The notes under the pieces are model-generated. The model was not told where the DNA came from, did no database searches, and saw only the letters and a list, made by a program, of their open reading frames with translations. 26,763 nt of DNA from a virus. The stretch is taken from the IMG/VR virus record IMGVR_UViG_3300014501_000059, positions 1 through 26,763 of that record; one strand, 5' to 3'. Shown one piece after another: positions 11,718 through 26,763 of this stretch. Each line of letters opens with the position of its first letter. Positions within the stretch are counted from its first letter, which is position 1. Both the position numbers and the translations under genes were made by a program.

Positions 11718-12311
11718 TTAAGGAGCCTTTCGTGTTAAAGCGTGTACCCCCAGCCAGATCAGTATAGCAGCTAGAACTGTGCCACCTGCAATCCAAGGCC
11801 AGAGATGATGAGGAGTAGTTGCGAGAGCTGCACCGCCAGCAACAACAACTGCACCAGCAGAACCGTGTGCAGCTATTGGAGCGTCAGGAGTTAGGAACTG
11901 TGTCTGCTCAGTCTTACGTCGCCCGATAATTTCTGGGGGCTTAGACCATTGCATAATAGCAGTTGCTGCTCCTTTGTAATCTTTTTGATTAAGCAGTTTC
12001 ATTGAATTAGATTTAAGGAATGCAGGACCTACGTTGTATACGATACTGACATAAGCATCAAACTGGTTCTGTGTAACAGGAACTTTAATAGCAGCATTAA
12101 GCTGTTTGATTATAGGTTGTAAGTCTGCAGTAAGAATAGCATCGTTCTGTGCCTTAGTAATAGTCATACCTTTCTTAACTTTAGGAGGACCTGCAGCAGA
12201 AGTGTGTCCTGTACCAATAGTCCATACACCTACACTATCTTGGTAGGCAGTAAGGATTACCCCTTCACGTTGTATAATCTTTTGTAAGCCTGCGTTACTT
12301 AGTTGCATCAT
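11718..12311 (-). CDS. Endolysin, T4-type lysozyme (GH24) with C-terminal membrane helix
   Basis: This is a 197-residue protein. The first ATG is at 12311; a TTG three bases upstream is an alternative. It cleaves the glycan strands of peptidoglycan. The catalytic triad of the GH24 family is visible with T4 lysozyme spacing: E16 in QREG, D25 in AYQD and T31 in VWTIGTGHT. The substrate-binding core continues to about residue 140 (FDAYVSIVYNVG). Residues 145-165 are Ala/Gly/Val-rich. Residues 170-192 form a clear hydrophobic helix (LWPWIAGGTVLAAILIWLGV), followed by a basic tail. The anchor is at the C-terminus, unlike signal-anchor-release endolysins, where it is N-terminal. The start overlaps the end of the 54-residue gene in another frame. 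Confidence 0.93.
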   Translation of the reverse strand: MMQLSNAGLQKIIQREGVILTAYQDSVGVWTIGTGHTSAAGPPKVKKGMTITKAQNDAILTADLQPIIKQLNAAIKVPVTQNQFDAYVSIVYNVGPAFLKSNSMKLLNQKDYKGAATAIMQWSKPPEIIGRRKTEQTQFLTPDAPIAAHGSAGAVVVAGGAALATTPHHLWPWIAGGTVLAAILIWLGVHALTRKAP

Positions 12312-12459
12312 CAACCACTTCTACAGGCGTAGCTGCCTGGAGTTTCTTATTCAGAACTACAGCAGCTTCTGCAACCAGAAGTCCACCTTGCTTGGTAGCT
12401 AGATCAAGTAGTTGAGACAGCGCGTTTAGTTCTTCTTTAGTAAATTGTACCGTAAACAT
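12295..12459 (-). CDS. Small 54-residue protein upstream of endolysin
   Basis: ATG at 12459 is preceded by a strong ribosome site (TAAGGAG, five bases upstream of the start), which also carries the stop codon of the preceding gene. The product starts MFTVQFTKEELNALSQLLDL and is a small acidic, Leu/Ala-rich, probably helical soluble protein ending VEVVDDATK. Its last codons overlap the endolysin start in another frame, so the two are probably translationally coupled. Similar short helical proteins (FTxEELxxLxxLLD pattern) are common in phage late operons, with no known function. The good ribosome site and tight fit make it very likely a real gene. Confidence 0.8.
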   Translation of the reverse strand: MFTVQFTKEELNALSQLLDLATKQGGLLVAEAAVVLNKKLQAATPVEVVDDATK

Positions 12460-19302: not shown

Positions 19303-21248
19303 TATTGAGTAGCTAAAAAGCCTCCTGGTTCTGCGTTACCGGGTGGTTGACGTTTAAGATCGAATGGAGATTGAGGCTTTGGTGAGCCACCGGGTTTACC
19401 GGCATCCATATCGTAGTCTTCACCCATTCCCGTAGCAGTCCCCATCTGCTGATGTAGTTGTTCTTGTATAGCCTGAGCCATCTGTTGTCCTTCCGCTTGT
19501 TCAGCGATAGCAACGAATGGTTGGACTACTTCGTAATCTGTTAGGTCAAACATATCTTCAAAGATCTTAGCTAATTTCTTACCTGAGAAGTGAGGGGCAA
19601 CTACTTGCCACATACCTGATCCAGTAAGATTAGTTAAGTTCTGAACTAGTTCTGCTTGTTCAGCAAAGTGTCTGGCAGCAATAGGTTTAATACGTCCTAT
19701 GCCAGTTATATCTTCGACAGTTAAGTCTTGGAAAGACGCAACATTAAATTGATCATCAAAGACTTTGATTGTAGTTGCACCGACCATATTACGTCGGGCT
19801 AGTTCTAACATTGCATTGAGCAGAGGCTCAATCATCTGTTCTTCAAATTGATTTATCTTATTCTGGAAGACACGTGCAGCGGCATTCTCTAGCCTCTGTA
19901 CTTCGTACTTCGTCTTTTCACCCGGAGATCTAAATCCCATTGCTTCTCTCGGGGCTCCGGCCATTTGCTCCATGAGGTTAGCAAGGTTTTGTATTTCCAT
20001 ATTAGCATTGAGAGCTTGGACTTCAGGTACGACCAGTTCAACATCGCCTTCATCTCCTATGAATATCTTTTCACCCGGTTGCCATACGAAGTCTTCTACG
20101 AAGCCTTTAACCTTCTGAACCGGATATGTACATAGATCAAAGATATCAGCCTTCATGTTCTCGATGTGATCCATTCGGTATTGCATACCGACTAGATTAT
20201 CGAGTGGACCCATACCCCATAGATTATCTTGCTTCTTCCTCCAGGGAACATGGTAGATTGGAGGGTAACCGAAGAAGCTAGGATTGGGTTTATTACCAAT
20301 TAGCTTATGTCTGTCAATTACAGTTATGACTCGGTTTTTCTCGAAGACATCATTGATGACATCATACCAATCGCCATAGAAAGTAAGAACTTCAACAAAA
20401 TCAGATAGCAAATAAGCCCTAAAACTCGTGAAGCCGTCCATCGCGTAAAGGCGGTCTCTTTGTATCCAGTCGCCTTGGAAGGTTCGGGCATGAAATCTAA
20501 TATCCTTTAAATACTTATATAACTCTTCTAGTTCTTCTCTATTCTCATCATTAGACATGTTACGCAGCATGTCTCTAACTTCACCTATACTGATGATGCT
20601 TCGTACCATCTTAGGAGATTGTATGAAGTTCTCAGCTGTAGGGTTCATGACCATATCGAGAGGGCTGATACGTCTAATAGTAGGACCCACATATCCTACT
20701 TGAGTCTGCATACCGCGTTTATGTTCATCTTGAGGTTGATACTTACCTACGGGGTAACCTCCCATATTAGCCATCTGAGGCTTAGAGGGTTGTTCAACTC
20801 TTTGGTCTTGCCATTCAACAGTAGCAAAACAATTACCAAAATCAATGTAATCTAATATGATCTTATCTATTTCATGCTTAAAGCCGGGTTGTTCTATAAC
20901 CCATTGCATGTAATTAGTAATAGCGTCACGCTTAGCTATTTGATTAGGGTCGCGTTCGTTAGCTTCCCACTCTAACCACTTCCTCTTTGGAAAGAGCGTG
21001 GCCGTATAGTTCGAGTAAAGGTTGTCGCGTATTTGGCATAGCTTGGGGACAACGGTTTTGTTCTTCCAGGGGTTCTGGGCGTTAGTCGTCCAGGTAGTAT
21101 CGGTAGCGTAGACGTATCGTCTAATCTCTTCCCAATTGTTTTTGGCATTCTGTCTTAGTGTTTCCCATTCTGTGTATCGTTCAGTAAGACGAGTAGCTAA
21201 TTGATCTGGAACCAACACATTGTGCAGTTCCATTGTTTTTCCCGTCAC
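19302..21248 (-). CDS. Portal (head-to-tail connector) protein
   Basis: This is a 648-residue protein, close to the usual size of podovirus portals. Typical segments are WETLRQNAKNNWEEIRRYV, the YSNYTATLFPKRKWLEWEA block, a YPPIYHVPWRKKQDNLWGMG block, and the helix with EAMGFRSPGEKTKYEVQRLE near residues 440-465. The last 60 residues are Gln/Gly/Pro-rich. It forms the dodecameric ring at the packaging vertex. The start given is a GTG overlapping the terminase stop (GTGA). An ATG at 21233 (MELHNVLVPD) is an equally reasonable start and would shorten it by five residues. Confidence 0.92.
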   Translation of the reverse strand: MTGKTMELHNVLVPDQLATRLTERYTEWETLRQNAKNNWEEIRRYVYATDTTWTTNAQNPWKNKTVVPKLCQIRDNLYSNYTATLFPKRKWLEWEANERDPNQIAKRDAITNYMQWVIEQPGFKHEIDKIILDYIDFGNCFATVEWQDQRVEQPSKPQMANMGGYPVGKYQPQDEHKRGMQTQVGYVGPTIRRISPLDMVMNPTAENFIQSPKMVRSIISIGEVRDMLRNMSNDENREELEELYKYLKDIRFHARTFQGDWIQRDRLYAMDGFTSFRAYLLSDFVEVLTFYGDWYDVINDVFEKNRVITVIDRHKLIGNKPNPSFFGYPPIYHVPWRKKQDNLWGMGPLDNLVGMQYRMDHIENMKADIFDLCTYPVQKVKGFVEDFVWQPGEKIFIGDEGDVELVVPEVQALNANMEIQNLANLMEQMAGAPREAMGFRSPGEKTKYEVQRLENAAARVFQNKINQFEEQMIEPLLNAMLELARRNMVGATTIKVFDDQFNVASFQDLTVEDITGIGRIKPIAARHFAEQAELVQNLTNLTGSGMWQVVAPHFSGKKLAKIFEDMFDLTDYEVVQPFVAIAEQAEGQQMAQAIQEQLHQQMGTATGMGEDYDMDAGKPGGSPKPQSPFDLKRQPPGNAEPGGFLATQ

Positions 21249-22828
21249 TGGACACCCCCAAACTTAGCGTTGAACGTAAATTGAGGAGTTTTAGTAGCTG
21301 TAGTGTTAAACATATTAGTAGGAGCTTTACCCTGTATAAAATCTACGGCAGAAGACAGAGCGTCTTTAATATCGTCATGTGCCGGATTAGCATAAATCAA
21401 TTCTTCTTCTAAAGCTTGGCAGTTACCAGATTGATAATGCCACATATTACCATTAGCATATTTAGGTTGTAGTGTAGCCATGATCCGTTCTTCTTTAGAA
21501 CCCTGCCATCTGGAAGGTCTGTATTCTTCCACTACTAGAGTTAGACCCTGAGGACGTATATAGTTCTCCTTCAAGTCTTTGACTATGACTGCCTGAGCTA
21601 GAGACACTTCAGCCCTGATCTGTCTGAAACCCCATTTCTGGTAGAGTTTGAATATTCTATCGAAGTATTCGGATATCTTATCAGTTTTAAATCTATCTAT
21701 TTCTAGGATGTAGTAGTTTTGTCTATTGTCGAGTCCGACGACGACGATGGACGTATAGTCGCTTTTCTTCCCCGTCGAGTACGCGAAGTCGACTGCGGCA
21801 ACGACGTTGATACGCTCTCCTTTGAAATACCACTTACCTTCTCTACGGGACAGGTAGTTTCCATCGTAGTATTGGAATAGGTTCCTCTGGATGGGGGACG
21901 AGTCGACATCGTGCGGATCGTTATAGTATTGCGCCCTGAAGTGTATCTTATTAAGGTATTGTGCTCTCTTTTTAGCCAAGATCTTATCGTCGAAGCCGAA
22001 CCATTTTCCTTGGACTCCTTGTTGGCGGGGCCAGAGATACTCCCCAGAGCCATCGCCAATTGACTCAACTTGGATCTTTCGGGGATCTTCTCCTCCAAAG
22101 ACTTCAAATAACGGAACGGATTTGTTAACATTTCCCAATTCATCAAGTTCTTCTAACTCCATTGCAATTAAATCTGAATATAAGTCTTTAGGATGATATC
22201 GTGTACCAACCACCCATTCTTTAGAATTTGAGGTCTCAACAGACGATAAATACGAATACTGAGTCTTTACTTTGTCCCGTCCGTCTTCGAGGTACGCATT
22301 CGCCTCAACCACCACATCATCAAGAATGGCGATGTCACAATGTAGCCCAACAATATTGCTAGTAAGACCAGCCGTAAATATTGAGGGGTCGCGGACAGAC
22401 CATTCTTTACGAATAGGATGGTCAACAGAGATTTCACGTTCAGTCCATTTCTCTCTTAACGCCTCTTCCTTGTTAACCATTTCAGGCCAGAATAGACGAT
22501 AAGTATCTGAGGTAAGAATATCTTTAATGTACTTAAGTTGCTTAGTAGCTAAGTTACTAGTACTAGAAATAAGAAGAATTCTTATTGCGGGGTTTAAAGT
22601 TAATTCTCTAACAGCTCTTAGAGCTATTAGAGTAGACTTCATATGATCTCTAGGGAGAAGTAAAAGCTGGTGAGACTTAGCTTCTTCTCTATCCCACCAT
22701 CGTATAATCTCACGGTGTATATTACCTAAAACTAGCTTAGGAACTAGAAGTTTAATAAACTCTTCTAGGTCAGACTCAGCCAATAACCTACGCTCTTCAC
22801 GATCCGGGCTGAGTTCTTTCTTTTTCAT
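21245..22828 (-). CDS. terL: Terminase large subunit
   Basis: This is a 527-residue packaging motor from ATG 22828 (MKKKELSPDR), with GAAGG upstream. A GTG at 22867 would add 13 residues inside the upstream gene and is less likely. ATPase: a variant Walker A at residues 58-66 (LPRDHMKST, with Lys64), and Walker B at 164-171 (CDIAILDD) followed by a conserved-type Asn at 177. Nuclease domain: Asp347 in AAVDFAYS within an RNase H-like strand, then YTSIVVVGLD, and a late acidic pair in HDDIKDAL. It cuts and translocates DNA into the prohead through the portal, encoded just downstream. No small subunit is identified by sequence here; it may be one of the small genes upstream. Confidence 0.95.
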   Translation of the reverse strand: MKKKELSPDREERRLLAESDLEEFIKLLVPKLVLGNIHREIIRWWDREEAKSHQLLLLPRDHMKSTLIALRAVRELTLNPAIRILLISSTSNLATKQLKYIKDILTSDTYRLFWPEMVNKEEALREKWTEREISVDHPIRKEWSVRDPSIFTAGLTSNIVGLHCDIAILDDVVVEANAYLEDGRDKVKTQYSYLSSVETSNSKEWVVGTRYHPKDLYSDLIAMELEELDELGNVNKSVPLFEVFGGEDPRKIQVESIGDGSGEYLWPRQQGVQGKWFGFDDKILAKKRAQYLNKIHFRAQYYNDPHDVDSSPIQRNLFQYYDGNYLSRREGKWYFKGERINVVAAVDFAYSTGKKSDYTSIVVVGLDNRQNYYILEIDRFKTDKISEYFDRIFKLYQKWGFRQIRAEVSLAQAVIVKDLKENYIRPQGLTLVVEEYRPSRWQGSKEERIMATLQPKYANGNMWHYQSGNCQALEEELIYANPAHDDIKDALSSAVDFIQGKAPTNMFNTTATKTPQFTFNAKFGGVQ

Positions 22829-23033
22829 CTTTAACGCCTTCAGCGTGAGAAGATTGTCTAACCTCACGAACTAATTCATCCTTCATGTGATTAGTTAGGT
22901 CGTGAACATCATCAATTTTAGTAGTAAGTCGTTCGTTATTTCTATGAAGCTCTAAATAGCCTACAACAGCCAGAGTCGGTGTTGCCACCGAGCTAATAGC
23001 TGTTATAAGTTGTGTTAATTCCGGAAGAGTCAT
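22797..23033 (-). CDS. Small membrane protein upstream of terminase
   Basis: This is a 78-residue protein starting MTLPELTQLITA. Residues 5-27 are hydrophobic (LTQLITAISSVATPTLAVVG), followed by a charged helix with a VHDLTNHMKDELVREVRQ pattern and a polar tail (EGVKDEKERTQPGS). This arrangement, with an H-x-L-T/V-N motif after one helix, is common in small phage membrane proteins that are often listed as holin-like. Its 3' end overlaps the terminase start by 32 bases. A lysis role is possible, but it lies far from the endolysin. Confidence 0.75.
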   Translation of the reverse strand: MTLPELTQLITAISSVATPTLAVVGYLELHRNNERLTTKIDDVHDLTNHMKDELVREVRQSSHAEGVKDEKERTQPGS

Positions 23034-24464: not shown

Positions 24465-24986
24465 TTAAGCCTTAGGAGCTAAGAATGCTTGACTTGAAGT
24501 AGGGGATACTGTCACAGGAACCGGTGTAACTACAACAGGAGGTGTTACTTGCACCTGCCAAGTCGTAGGGAGAGTCCCCGGAACGACGTTGGTGTTAGCA
24601 ACTAGAGCCTTATAGTTATTACCCGTATACCAGACTACAGTACCAACAGAGTACGGAGTCGTAGAATTCCAGGAAATCCCTGAACGAGCCGTAGTAGTTT
24701 TACCTAGGAGCATATCTTCCTTAGCCTTCTGGTCAACAACCTTCTGAGCTTGGTTCTTAGCTTCTAGATCCGTCTTAACCTTCTCGGTGGCCGGAGTACG
24801 TAGAGCAGCATTACCAATGCTAAGGTTCTTATCTCTGTTAGCCTTGAGAGTAGCAACTTCAGCATCAGTAAATATTACTTCCTGAATAGGTGCCATAGTA
24901 GTACCTGTTCCAGTAGAAACCGCAACCTTAGTTTCAGGAGTAGACTCCGTACCTACAGTTGCTGGACGTCCTTTATAAATAGCCAT
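24465..24986 (-). CDS. Protein with chitin-binding-like (CBM5/12-type) module
   Basis: This is a 173-residue protein starting MAIYKGRPATVGTESTPETK. Residues 35-90 are helical and charged (TDAEVATLKANRDKNLSIGN). Residues 104-146 read ISWNSTTPYSVGTVVWYTGN followed by NYKALVANTN and a Pro-x-x-x-x-x-W spacing to TTWQVQ. This has the aromatic layout of the small chitin/cellulose-binding module (W, Y-x-x-G, V-x-Y-x-G-x-x-Y, P, W). The tail is Val/Thr/Pro-rich. It could display a sugar-binding domain on the virion for host or surface adhesion. The module call rests on motif spacing only. Confidence 0.75.
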   Translation of the reverse strand: MAIYKGRPATVGTESTPETKVAVSTGTGTTMAPIQEVIFTDAEVATLKANRDKNLSIGNAALRTPATEKVKTDLEAKNQAQKVVDQKAKEDMLLGKTTTARSGISWNSTTPYSVGTVVWYTGNNYKALVANTNVVPGTLPTTWQVQVTPPVVVTPVPVTVSPTSSQAFLAPKA

Positions 24987-24988
24987 GG

Positions 24989-25171
24989 TTATTTCTTCCT
25001 TTTAGTTTTCTTTTGTTGCTTCCTCTTGGAAGCTGTATCGCTGTAGCGTCCTACAGGAGATTTCTTATGTTTAGAATTATATATCTTAGCAGCTTGAGTC
25101 TTAGCTTTCTTAAGACTAAGACCTTTCTTAACTAGACTATCTCTAATAGCTTCGTATTGTTTAGGCATCAT
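24989..25171 (-). CDS. Small basic hypothetical protein
   Basis: This is a 60-residue protein starting MMPKQYEAIRDSLVKKGLSL. The first 35 residues match a pattern I know from small phage proteins (YEAIRDxLxxxGxxxxxAKxxAAKIYN), here KKAKTQAAKIYNSKHKKSP. The C-terminus is strongly basic (SKRKQQKKTKRKK). Two ATG codons are adjacent at the start, and the first overlaps the stop region of the upstream gene. A nucleic-acid-associated role is possible; the function is not established. Confidence 0.8.
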   Translation of the reverse strand: MMPKQYEAIRDSLVKKGLSLKKAKTQAAKIYNSKHKKSPVGRYSDTASKRKQQKKTKRKK

Positions 25172-25337
25172 CTATAGACCAGAACCATAAAGGACTTAAC
25201 CACCCATAGATCCTATAGGCTTTACTACCTTTATGTTTCTTATCTTCCTTAGCCATAACTATATCCATTAGATCTGGGAAACTTAGTTCTTTCTTATTGT
25301 ATAAACTATAAGCTTCTGTAATAGTTAGTCTTGACAT
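25161..25337 (-). CDS. First gene of the leftward operon, 58 residues
   Basis: ATG 25337 to TAA 25161, beginning MSRLTITEAYSLYNKKELSF and ending LSPLWFWSIDDA. It is small, basic in the middle (MAKEDKKHKGSKAYRIYGW) and aromatic at the end, with no clear membrane helix. It overlaps the start of the next gene in another frame. Its first codons contain, on the other strand, the -35 box of the rightward promoter. It has no good ribosome site, and one of the possible leftward promoters would give it only a very short leader. Family not recognised. Confidence 0.7.
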   Translation of the reverse strand: MSRLTITEAYSLYNKKELSFPDLMDIVMAKEDKKHKGSKAYRIYGWLSPLWFWSIDDA

Positions 25338-25359
25338 ACGTCGTTAAGTATAATATACT
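25331..25359 (+). promoter_or_regulatory. Rightward sigma70-type promoter
   Basis: TTGACA at 25331-25336, exactly 17 bases, then TATACT at 25354-25359. The predicted start is near 25366, leaving a leader of about 25 bases that contains the AGGAGA ribosome site of the 72-residue gene. The -35 is perfect and the -10 has one mismatch. The -35 lies inside the first codons of the leftward operon's first gene. A TATAAT at 25349 is only 12 bases from the -35 and does not fit. Confidence 0.75.
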
Positions 25360-25360
25360 T
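25346..25360. promoter_or_regulatory. Palindrome over the rightward -10 box, candidate operator
   Basis: AAGTATA and TATACTT are perfect 7-base arms around a single central A. The palindrome covers the -10 of the rightward promoter and lies just downstream of the predicted leftward start. A dimeric repressor bound here would block the rightward promoter and impede leftward transcription. AT-rich palindromes also arise by chance, so this is a candidate only. Confidence 0.4.
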
Positions 25361-25373
25361 CTTTCATATGTCT

Positions 25374-25402
25374 ATTATACAGGAGATATTGTGAAAAGTC
25401 AA
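25374..25402 (-). promoter_or_regulatory. Leftward sigma70-type promoter for the late operon
   Basis: Read on the minus strand: TTGACT (25402-25397), exactly 17 bases, then TATAAT (25379-25374). The predicted start is near 25367, about 30 bases before the first leftward gene. The -10 is perfect and the -35 has one mismatch. The -35 lies in codons 3-4 of the rightward 72-residue gene and the spacer contains that gene's ribosome site. A second weaker leftward pair (TAGACA, 16 bases, TATACT at 25374-25347) overlaps it and would give an almost leaderless mRNA. Confidence 0.75.
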
Positions 25403-25609
25403 GAAAAGCCCATCGGGCTGGTTCCCGATGAACTTCCAAACATGTGGAGACTCATTTGGGCTAATGGTGATAAATCTAAAGATTATTACAATTTATCCCG
25501 AGCTAAAGACAATTTAAAGCATTATGACGACAAGATGTATAAAAAGCGGGGGTTCGCTCGCTTACAGAAGCCAAACGCTATGGGCTGGGAAGCCCGTACG
25601 TGCGTTTAA
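25391..25609 (+). CDS. First gene of the rightward operon, 72 residues
   Basis: The GTG at 25391 is chosen because AGGAGA lies five bases upstream. A TTG at 25331 in the same frame lies inside the promoter and is rejected. The product starts with VKSQEKPIGLVPDELPNMWR, has a basic middle (SRAKDNLKHYDDKMYKKRGF) and ends AMGWEARTCV. It is soluble-looking and Trp- and Lys-rich. Small basic early phage proteins often act on host machinery or on transcription. Given its place opposite the late operon promoter, a regulatory role is attractive but unproven. I do not recognise the family, and no helix-turn-helix is obvious. Confidence 0.75.
   Translation: MKSQEKPIGLVPDELPNMWRLIWANGDKSKDYYNLSRAKDNLKHYDDKMYKKRGFARLQKPNAMGWEARTCV
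25411..25430 (+). repeat. Perfect 7-bp inverted repeat inside the first rightward gene
   Basis: CATCGGG and CCCGATG flank the six bases CTGGTT, about 45-65 bases after the predicted rightward start. In RNA it would form a stable hairpin soon after the start codon. In DNA it is a dyad just behind the leftward promoter's -35. It could be an operator or an mRNA structure affecting translation, or simply coding sequence. Confidence 0.5.
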
Positions 25610-25619
25610 ATCACCTACA

Positions 25620-25635
25620 GGCTACTAGGGTAGCC
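25620..25635 (+). other. Stem-loop after the first rightward gene
   Basis: GGCTAC and GTAGCC pair perfectly around a TAGG loop, eleven bases after the stop of the 72-residue gene. No T-run follows, so it is not a full intrinsic terminator. It may be an RNA processing site or a pause site in the 114-base gap before the next gene. Confidence 0.5.
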
Positions 25636-25723
25636 AAATGACTAGAAAGTAGCATAAAATCGTATATCCATGGCATCTACGCTGGTGGAAAGAAATTATG
25701 GGTTTGATTATAGGAGAGTATTA

Positions 25724-25828
25724 ATGTTCTGGAGATTTATAGATAATCGTTGTGTTCTGTGGTTCTGGGAATATGAACCGTATGTACGCTGGACAGACGT
25801 TCTTAAAAATGAGAATATTCTACAATGA
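25724..25828 (+). CDS. 34-residue aromatic small protein
   Basis: ATG 25724 has a strong AGGAGA ribosome site seven bases upstream. The product starts MFWRFIDNRCVLWFWEYEPY and ends VLKNENILQ, with six Trp/Phe in the first 20 residues. An in-frame ATG at 25670 would add 18 residues but lacks a ribosome site. The stop overlaps the next ATG (ATGA), which supports translational coupling and a real two-gene unit. Aromatic, amphipathic composition suggests a membrane-surface or protein-binding peptide. Function unknown. Confidence 0.6.
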   Translation: MFWRFIDNRCVLWFWEYEPYVRWTDVLKNENILQ

Positions 25829-25983
25829 GCTGGTACACTACGAAAGAAGAAGCTGAGAAAGCTTGTGAAAAGAAAGAAAAGGAATTCGGACAGGAATTCG
25901 TTGTTTTGAAAGATTCTGAGAAAGAGGGCTGTTGGTGGGCGCAGAGAAAGAATTCATTAAAAAACCTGTGCGATATTTTTTAG
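25825..25983 (+). CDS. 52-residue charged small protein, possibly extended by frameshift
   Basis: ATG 25825 overlaps the previous stop as ATGA. The product starts MSWYTTKEEAEKACEKKEKE, continues FGQEFVVLKDSEKEGCWWAQ and ends at a TAG at 25981 after SLKNLCDIF. The first 43 residues look like a small folded alpha/beta protein. The last nine look out of character. Near the end, the codons TTA-AAA-AAC contain the heptamer A-AAA-AAC in the correct phase for a -1 shift. The -1 frame is then open for 31 codons. Either this is a frameshift gene of 78 residues or the A-run carries an indel. It may also be just two overlapping frames. Confidence 0.65.
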   Translation: MSWYTTKEEAEKACEKKEKEFGQEFVVLKDSEKEGCWWAQRKNSLKNLCDIF

Positions 25984-26060
25984 GTACTAAAAGTTGTCCG
26001 ATAAATGTTTGGATCAATTCATTGCTTGAACGACGGGGTGGTGCCCCCTACTATGGGTAG
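25959..26060 (+). other. Candidate -1 frameshift site and downstream extension
   Basis: The heptamer lies at 25959-25965. In the -1 frame the next codons read PVRYFLGTKSCPINVWINSL and then LERRGGAPYYG before TAG at 26058. This stretch is richer in structured-protein residues than the zero-frame end. It also has a possible separate start, GTG at 25935, with GAGG seven bases upstream. No convincing stem follows at the usual 5-9-base spacing; a GGGG/CCCC stem lies about 70 bases on. A purine stretch about ten bases upstream (AGAGAAAG) is only a weak Shine-Dalgarno-like stimulator. Addition of a single A to the six-A run would fuse the two frames. Confidence 0.45.
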
Positions 26061-26141
26061 ATGAATAATCGAACTGGAACAACAAAATAAAATATGAAAG
26101 CCTCTAAGTTTGCAATGATCGACATCTCTAAGACACTCCAA

Positions 26142-26168
26142 TAGTTGGATGCAATAGCTAACCAACTA
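26142..26168. repeat. Inverted repeat TAGTTGG/CCAACTA
   Basis: Perfect 7-base arms with a 13-base spacer, lying after the last rightward small gene. It could be a protein-binding dyad or a weak RNA hairpin; no T-run follows closely. The role is unknown. Confidence 0.5.
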
Positions 26169-26176
26169 ACGTTGTC

Positions 26177-26196
26177 TTACTAATGGTTACTAATGG
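26177..26196. repeat. Tandem direct repeat, two copies of TTACTAATGG
   Basis: Two perfect adjacent 10-base copies. This is close to one helical turn per copy, so a protein binding both would contact the same DNA face. Two copies may also be a simple slippage product. Confidence 0.55.
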
Positions 26197-26258
26197 ATAA
26201 CACTTAGTATCCTAAGGGTTCTAATAGACACTTAGACAGCGCGCGTAGCGCAATAGAC

Positions 26259-26296
26259 AAAAAGAAAGCCCCGGAAGCCTAATGGCTGCCGAGGCT
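26259..26296 (-). terminator. Intrinsic terminator (leftward; possibly bidirectional)
   Basis: The arms at 26267-26279 and 26284-26296 pair over 13 positions with two mismatches around a TAAT loop. On the minus strand the stem is followed by TTTCTTTTTG, a clear U-tract. It lies about 100 bases after the stop of the leftward gene at the right edge and should end that transcript. On the plus strand the stem is followed by GTTTGTTTG, so it may also stop rightward transcription from the small-gene operon. It is strong and G+C-rich, unlike the AT-rich phage sequence to its left. Confidence 0.85.
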
Positions 26297-26319
26297 GTTT
26301 GTTTGATGTGTTTGTTAGT

Positions 26320-26378
26320 GCTGGCGCATTGGCCTAGCAATGCTCTTGCGAGCGTGTGAGCTAAGCGAACGCGCCAGC
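26320..26378 (-). other. Long imperfect hairpin, possible structured RNA or site
   Basis: The outer arms GCTGGCGC (26320-26327) and GCGCCAGC (26371-26378) pair perfectly. Inside, further short paired blocks are separated by single mismatches (TT/AA, GC/GC, TAGC/GCTA). They are capped by GCTC-TTGC-GAGC at 26342-26353. The whole forms a 59-base rod in the 3' region of the leftward gene's transcript, before the terminator. It could protect the 3' end, be a small RNA, or be a DNA site such as a recombination or origin element. Confidence 0.6.
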
Positions 26379-26392
26379 TAGTTGACGTTGTG

Positions 26393-26763
26393 TTACTTGC
26401 TCGCTTGCGCCTGCCGCAACGCCTCAACCTTGGCGTTATCGGCGATGTTCAGATTGTCATACTGAACATGATACTTGTCATAGATTGGCTTGAGAAGAAT
26501 GAACAAGTCGCACTGTGACCGCAGGAATGCTTCATCCAGCGGCTTTGTGTTCAGTTTGCGATAGATCAAAGACAAGTTCTCATTCTTCTCCAGATAACCG
26601 GCCATTAATCCGGCCGATGCTTCGTAGCCCTCAAGGTTCAAAGGCTTGCCGTCCTTGCCGTCCTTCGGACCTTTCGTGGCAGTAGCCACGATAGCCTCGT
26701 ATGTGCCGCCGTTCTCTTTCGCGGCTTCCACGTCATAGGTAAGGAACTGTCCGATGCTAACGA
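26393..26763 (-). CDS. Unknown protein, partial (N-terminus beyond right edge)
   Basis: The frame is open from the right edge to TAA at 26393-26395, giving at least 122 residues. A GTG at 26731 is not a convincing start because the frame continues upstream of it (VSIGQFLTYDVEAA). Visible features are a Lys/Gly/Asp-rich loop (ATKGPKDGKDGKPLNLEG) and a mostly helical remainder (LRSQCDLFILLKPIYDKYHV), ending VEALRQAQASK. Codon use is unlike that of the phage genes to the left: CTG, GCC, GGC, CGC and AAG dominate, and CTA and AGA are absent. The terminator follows on the same strand. I do not recognise the family. It may be a phage early gene from another source or a host gene. Confidence 0.75.
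   Translation of the reverse strand, partial: VSIGQFLTYDVEAAKENGGTYEAIVATATKGPKDGKDGKPLNLEGYEASAGLMAGYLEKNENLSLIYRKLNTKPLDEAFLRSQCDLFILLKPIYDKYHVQYDNLNIADNAKVEALRQAQASK

Follow-up and report, generated by a model that had tools for sequence, protein, structure and literature searches.

In the window, by which we mean the whole 26.8-kb IMG/VR fragment analysed here, two complete near-consensus sigma70-type promoters are aimed toward each other and occupy the same 72 bases (25331-25402), and it appears reasonably probable that this shared site forces the two directions to compete for host polymerase, the overlap being what is kept among relatives and the register being what is not. The initial annotation had proposed the face-to-face pair, and its positions are correct to the base:

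25331-25359, plus strand: rightward sigma70-like promoter TTGACA-17-TATACT, with the -35 at 25331-25336, the -10 at 25354-25359 and the predicted start at A25366
25374-25402, minus strand: leftward (late) sigma70-like promoter TTGACT-17-TATAAT, with the -35 at 25402-25397, the -10 at 25379-25374 and the predicted start at 25367
25366-25367: predicted starts of both transcripts, each 7 nt past its -10, offset -1

Both promoters match 11 of the 12 consensus bases with a spacer of 17 bp, both predicted starts are an A on their own strand (25366 for the rightward and opposite 25367 for the leftward transcript), and the near-symmetry and adjoining starts described previously are indeed true of the window hexamers, whose symmetry axis lies at 25366.5. 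It was also rightly noted that each -35 lies inside the first codons of the opposing gene, since the rightward -35 (25331-25336) overlaps codons 1-3 of the leftward open reading frame (ATG at 25337-25335), while the late -35 (25397-25402) makes up codons 3-4 of the rightward gene (GTG at 25391), and that a long intergenic region is absent, the opposing start codons being 53 bp apart. The rightward predicted start is followed after 25 nt by the GTG start, with a good Shine-Dalgarno sequence in between. On the other side, the predicted leftward transcript begins exactly at the ATG of a 7-codon frame, MKEVYYT plus stop (25344-25367, minus strand), which precedes the 58-aa leftward open reading frame (25161-25337), itself without a clear Shine-Dalgarno sequence. 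The genes and elements surrounding the pair are as follows:

25391-25609, plus strand: gene that opens the rightward small operon; 72 aa from a GTG start, with the Shine-Dalgarno AGGAG at 25381-25385; no family match
25670-25828, plus strand: small open reading frame, 52 aa; called as an open reading frame only
25825-25983, plus strand: small open reading frame, 52 aa, with a 4-nt overlap with the preceding one; called as an open reading frame only
25161-25337, minus strand: first open reading frame of the leftward arm, 58 aa, start codon in the opposing -35; no homologue found
21245-22867, minus strand: terminase large subunit, leftward arm (PHROG 38, E 7e-86)
11718-12314, minus strand: endolysin, leftward arm (PHROG 7, E 4e-45)
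25404-25437, minus strand: terminator-like hairpin inside the rightward gene, just upstream of the late promoter; consensus match only
26267-26296, both strands: strong hairpin separating the rightward small operon from the convergent leftward gene (z -3.7 and -3.2)
26393-26761, minus strand: convergent leftward gene past the probable terminator, truncated where the contig ends; weak homologue in the related locus L002

The promoter pair thus sits at a fork, from which the minus-strand leftward arm carries the terminase, portal, capsid, tail, internal virion and endolysin genes, and from which a short run of small open reading frames (25391-26060) leads rightward to the two-strand hairpin and then to the convergent leftward gene. 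The hairpin at 26267-26296 is probably a bidirectional terminator, and the one at 25404-25437, which on the minus strand has 14 pairs and a T-rich tail extending into the late -35, may insulate the late promoter or stop leftward read-through. The notion that the two promoters control opposite operons holds insofar as the structural and lysis genes follow the leftward promoter, but it has to be qualified for the endolysin, which has a further promoter candidate some 210 bp upstream of its start (TTCACA-16-TATAAT, 12552-12525, minus strand), the third-best candidate in the window with a score of 11.7. This is possibly a separate lysis promoter, and the fork promoter need therefore not be the sole one for the structural and lysis genes. 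Sequence searches with the small proteins of the fork gave neither relatives nor families, and a search of known-phage DNA with the fork region of the window gave no match. It should also be mentioned that a 173-aa protein upstream of the terminase (24465-24986, minus strand) has a weak match, under the cut-off, to carbohydrate-binding module 5/12 as well as weak tail-fibre matches, and that G+C is by eye higher beyond the small operon than in the fork and structural arm (window 26240-26763; L002 1-1100).

The pair is unlikely to be a product of chance. In a position-weight scan the rightward (13.8) and leftward (13.4) promoters are the top two sigma70-like promoters of the window, the next scoring 11.7, and their sum of 27.2 was matched in none of 200 dinucleotide shuffles of the whole window (best 19.4) and in none of 5000 local shuffles of 651 bp (best 20.0). 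In a further test the late hexamers were left in place while all other bases of the region were shuffled; the opposing promoter then came out at p = 0.003, the smallest value obtainable by this procedure.

Opposed pairs are furthermore found well beyond the window. Terminase searches yielded about 95 related loci, from which 72 regions upstream of the terminase, window included, were scanned, an opposed pair being called at a summed score of at least 23 with starts at most 60 bp apart and the expectation being taken from first-order shuffles. A strong opposed overlapping pair is present in 25 of the 72 regions (window included) against 0.25 expected, and in a second set, fetched with the portal protein, in 4 of 16 against 0.0 expected. 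The counts are not fully independent owing to the near-duplicate loci L005/L006, L032/L090, L044/L046, L078/L079 and L126/L145, and more than half of the scanned regions are without a pair at this threshold, some of them owing to contigs that stop short of the fork. At 20 of 30 forks the opposing promoter attains p < 0.05, a proportion that leans slightly upward, three forks having entered since the pair scan had found them. In the 51.4-kb genome G001 both members of the pair are perfect consensus promoters and the two strongest of the genome, and they form the boundary between some 32 kb of leftward structural genes and a rightward arm in which a DNA polymerase and a Cas4-type exonuclease are encoded; in complete relatives, too, the structural arm and the arm bearing DNA polymerase lie on opposite sides of the fork. 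In G004 (offset 5) the main early arm is preceded by a rightward operon of two genes, by a hairpin that looks like a terminator on either strand and by convergent genes, a layout that resembles the short operon, two-strand terminator and convergent genes of the window.

The exact geometry is another matter. With the offset counted along the late direction, from the opposing start to the late start, the values include -46, -44, -30, -29, -15, -10, -1, 0, 0, 2, 5, 13, 18, 29, 31, 33 and 34, and a near-zero offset is found in the window, L045, L078/L079, L032/L090 and L129. On a quick terminase tree, in which many forks, including deeper ones, are weakly supported, the window, L045, L078/L079 and L032/L090 are scattered, L129 not being in the tree. 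A conserved coincident-start geometry was consequently rejected as a candidate, given a register that runs from -46 to +34 bp and near-zero offsets that are scattered on the terminase tree. Comparing the 72-bp region among relatives, as had been suggested, hence gives a divided answer, since the opposed overlap recurs far beyond chance, but coincident starts and symmetry are not fixed. The overlap is a recurrent property of some members of the group, with a register that can shift freely, and the symmetry seen in the window represents one version of the arrangement; selection seems to act on the overlap and not on the exact register.

A side observation from the same comparison concerns the opposing -35 (TTGACAT), which at the forks of L024, L036, L054, L057, L060, L142 and others is found again as ATGTCAAG immediately past the late -10, so that these bases can function as a -35, as a start codon or within a Shine-Dalgarno sequence. 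Such double use in several relatives, together with the widely varying register and the mere 53 bp between the start codons in the window, agrees with the alternative that the overlap reflects compaction only, i.e. that divergent operons each need a promoter and a short intergenic space leaves them overlapping as a by-product without a regulatory role. We regard this alternative as rather doubtful, since about 330 bp at 26060-26390, some 700 bp from the fork, are without an obvious gene, so that space in the window is not uniformly tight, and since most strong opposing promoters sit within the range at which polymerases would clash.

The closest relative, L002, with 82% terminase identity, bears on the promoters individually. 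At its fork the late promoter is kept, with hexamers and spacing identical to those of the window, and short collinear stretches of the small operon are recognizable, including 74% identity over 54 bp near the 3' end of the 72-aa gene, although the fork alignment with the window is too divergent for promoter homology to be read. The best opposing candidate in L002 is TTGTTG-17-TATACT, which has an offset of +23, shares the -10 region and is weak (p = 0.13). A relative lacking one promoter while keeping the gene order was named beforehand as an observation that would speak against the proposed arrangement, and L002 comes partway to this, having a weak opposing candidate only. In the isolates ICBM1, P12053L and MEP402, and likewise in the assembled genome T5S1, the structural arm is preceded by one strong promoter, for which the stretches scanned contain no strong overlapping partner. 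That only the late promoter matters, the opposing one being incidental or weak, would fit both L002 and these known relatives; this explanation is nonetheless improbable, for the rightward promoter has the highest score of the window and, 25 nt past its predicted start, a GTG with a good Shine-Dalgarno sequence, and strong opposing promoters recur in relatives. In passing, the first late gene of L002 (1960-2643, plus strand, 227 aa) has a weak match, under the cut-off, to an arginyl-tRNA-protein transferase C-terminal domain (E 0.001), and the counterpart position in the window holds the unrelated 58-aa open reading frame.

As to the polymerase that reads the fork, the window terminase shares about 55% identity with its counterparts in Siovirus-group phages and about 45% with that of Vibrio phage ICP2, and these identities place the fragment near Zobellviridae, the virus thus appearing by terminase similarity to be a related podovirus. 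SIO1, which belongs to this group, is without an RNA polymerase according to the cobavirus paper (PMC6775973). Searches of 12 relatives, each about 50 kb long, for a T7-type RNA polymerase (PF00940) and for a sigma70 region-2 domain gave no hit, T7 itself being recovered by the polymerase search when included as a control, and this implies that the host polymerase is the likely reader of the fork promoters.

Competition at the shared site, the reading we favor, would operate as follows. The fork is one RNA-polymerase-sized site at the divide of gene direction with two opposed near-consensus sigma70 promoters, which host sigma70 polymerase would occupy in one orientation at a time. Judged from usual footprint sizes, the two footprints in the window would share roughly 25347-25386, and an escaping polymerase should have passed both opposing hexamers after about 36 nt. 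Single-orientation binding and run-through of the opposing promoter would together mean that initiation one way costs initiation the other way, and late-gene transcription would in this manner be tied to the short small-gene operon in the window, or to the early side in relatives, with a balance presumably set by relative promoter strength or some further factor. The arrangement alone would be expected to yield a graded split and not two stable states. The earlier suggestion that polymerase bound at one promoter would cover the other is in good agreement with this, the overlap being sufficient by geometry for mutual exclusion to be plausible, and steric exclusion at the fork is well founded by analogy, since at opposed overlapping promoters two polymerases are never bound at once and the strong direction represses the other (PMC12825309, PMC4207663). 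Five bidirectional promoters tested in E. coli were too low in basal activity to compete, and competition emerged once one direction was activated (PMC12825309); the near-consensus promoters of the fork could compete without such activation.

The same geometry was initially taken to suit a bistable switch, and this part of the proposal finds no support, since exclusion alone is insufficient and the searches for regulators and operators came up empty. In a true bistable switch a regulator from one side would shift the balance and lock the direction, as is conceivable in view of the temperate phage 186, which has convergent pR and pL promoters with transcriptional interference (PMC6593788), and of plasmid pLS20, which has overlapping divergent promoters with a dual regulator (PMC4207663). 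However, overlapping-promoter switches need a regulator that acts differently on the two promoters (PMC4207663), and the phage 186 switch of similar geometry relies on a repressor (PMC6593788). Family and homologue searches recognized no regulator among the small genes of the window, and HTH_3 gave no match over the cut-off in the 12 relatives. The 15-bp palindrome AAGTATAATATACTT at 25346-25360 is the sole perfect copy in the window and was not seen in L002, and operator-like palindromes are not enriched at forks relative to shuffles (window p = 0.11). A toy model of pure competition, with exclusion and without feedback, furthermore gave unimodal output, and we consider a bistable switch highly improbable. 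More tentatively, and with a chance of being correct that we would place well short of even, soil podoviruses that lack an RNA polymerase of their own may, across a large group, balance structural against opposite-strand transcription with two near-consensus host promoters on a single polymerase site, regulator-free promoter competition being the timing or dosage device, and the overlap being kept in evolution while the register drifts.

Facing promoters over a shared control region are known from the divergent argECBH and bio operons of E. coli, in which a dedicated repressor acts at the shared operator; in the window neither a regulator nor an operator was recognized. The bidirectional promoters of Warman, Grainger and colleagues are likewise opposed sigma70 promoters on the same DNA, at which one bound polymerase shuts out the other, and such exclusion would be expected at the fork from its geometry. 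Bidirectional promoters are defined by divergent starts 7-25 bp apart and a shared -10 element, the usual forms having starts 18, 10 or 23 bp apart (PMC10268837, PMC12825309). The window falls outside this definition with its offset of -1 and separate -10 boxes (25354-25359 and 25374-25379), and its pair differs in consisting of two complete promoters with separate facing -10s that are near-consensus rather than weak, whereas L027 (offset 18) and L002 (weak, 23) fit the bacterial form, the offset classes being those of our own promoter scan. As in the window, the pR and pL promoters of phage 186 face each other with each polymerase running over the other promoter (title of Dodd et al. 1990 as cited in PMC5526970; PMC6593788). 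Phage 186 is however temperate, with a CI repressor and overlapping transcripts (PMC6593788), whereas in the window the predicted starts abut, the transcripts would hardly overlap and no repressor was recognized. The Pc and Pr promoters of pLS20 coincide or overlap and, in likeness to the window, serve a large operon on one side and a small unit on the opposite side, but there RcoLS20 acts on both promoters by way of operators and looping (PMC4207663), of which none were found in the window. The fork is thus a version of the known arrangement of overlapping opposed promoters, and its interest is raised by its recurrence with varying register in uncultured phages. Such promoters have usually been described singly, and here a group of phages supplies many natural versions, their offsets spanning -46 to +34 bp, at a corresponding fork of the genome, which makes possible a comparative test of whether output is set by overlap alone or by register, and raises the question of whether regulator-free polymerase competition can divide phage transcription between two arms.
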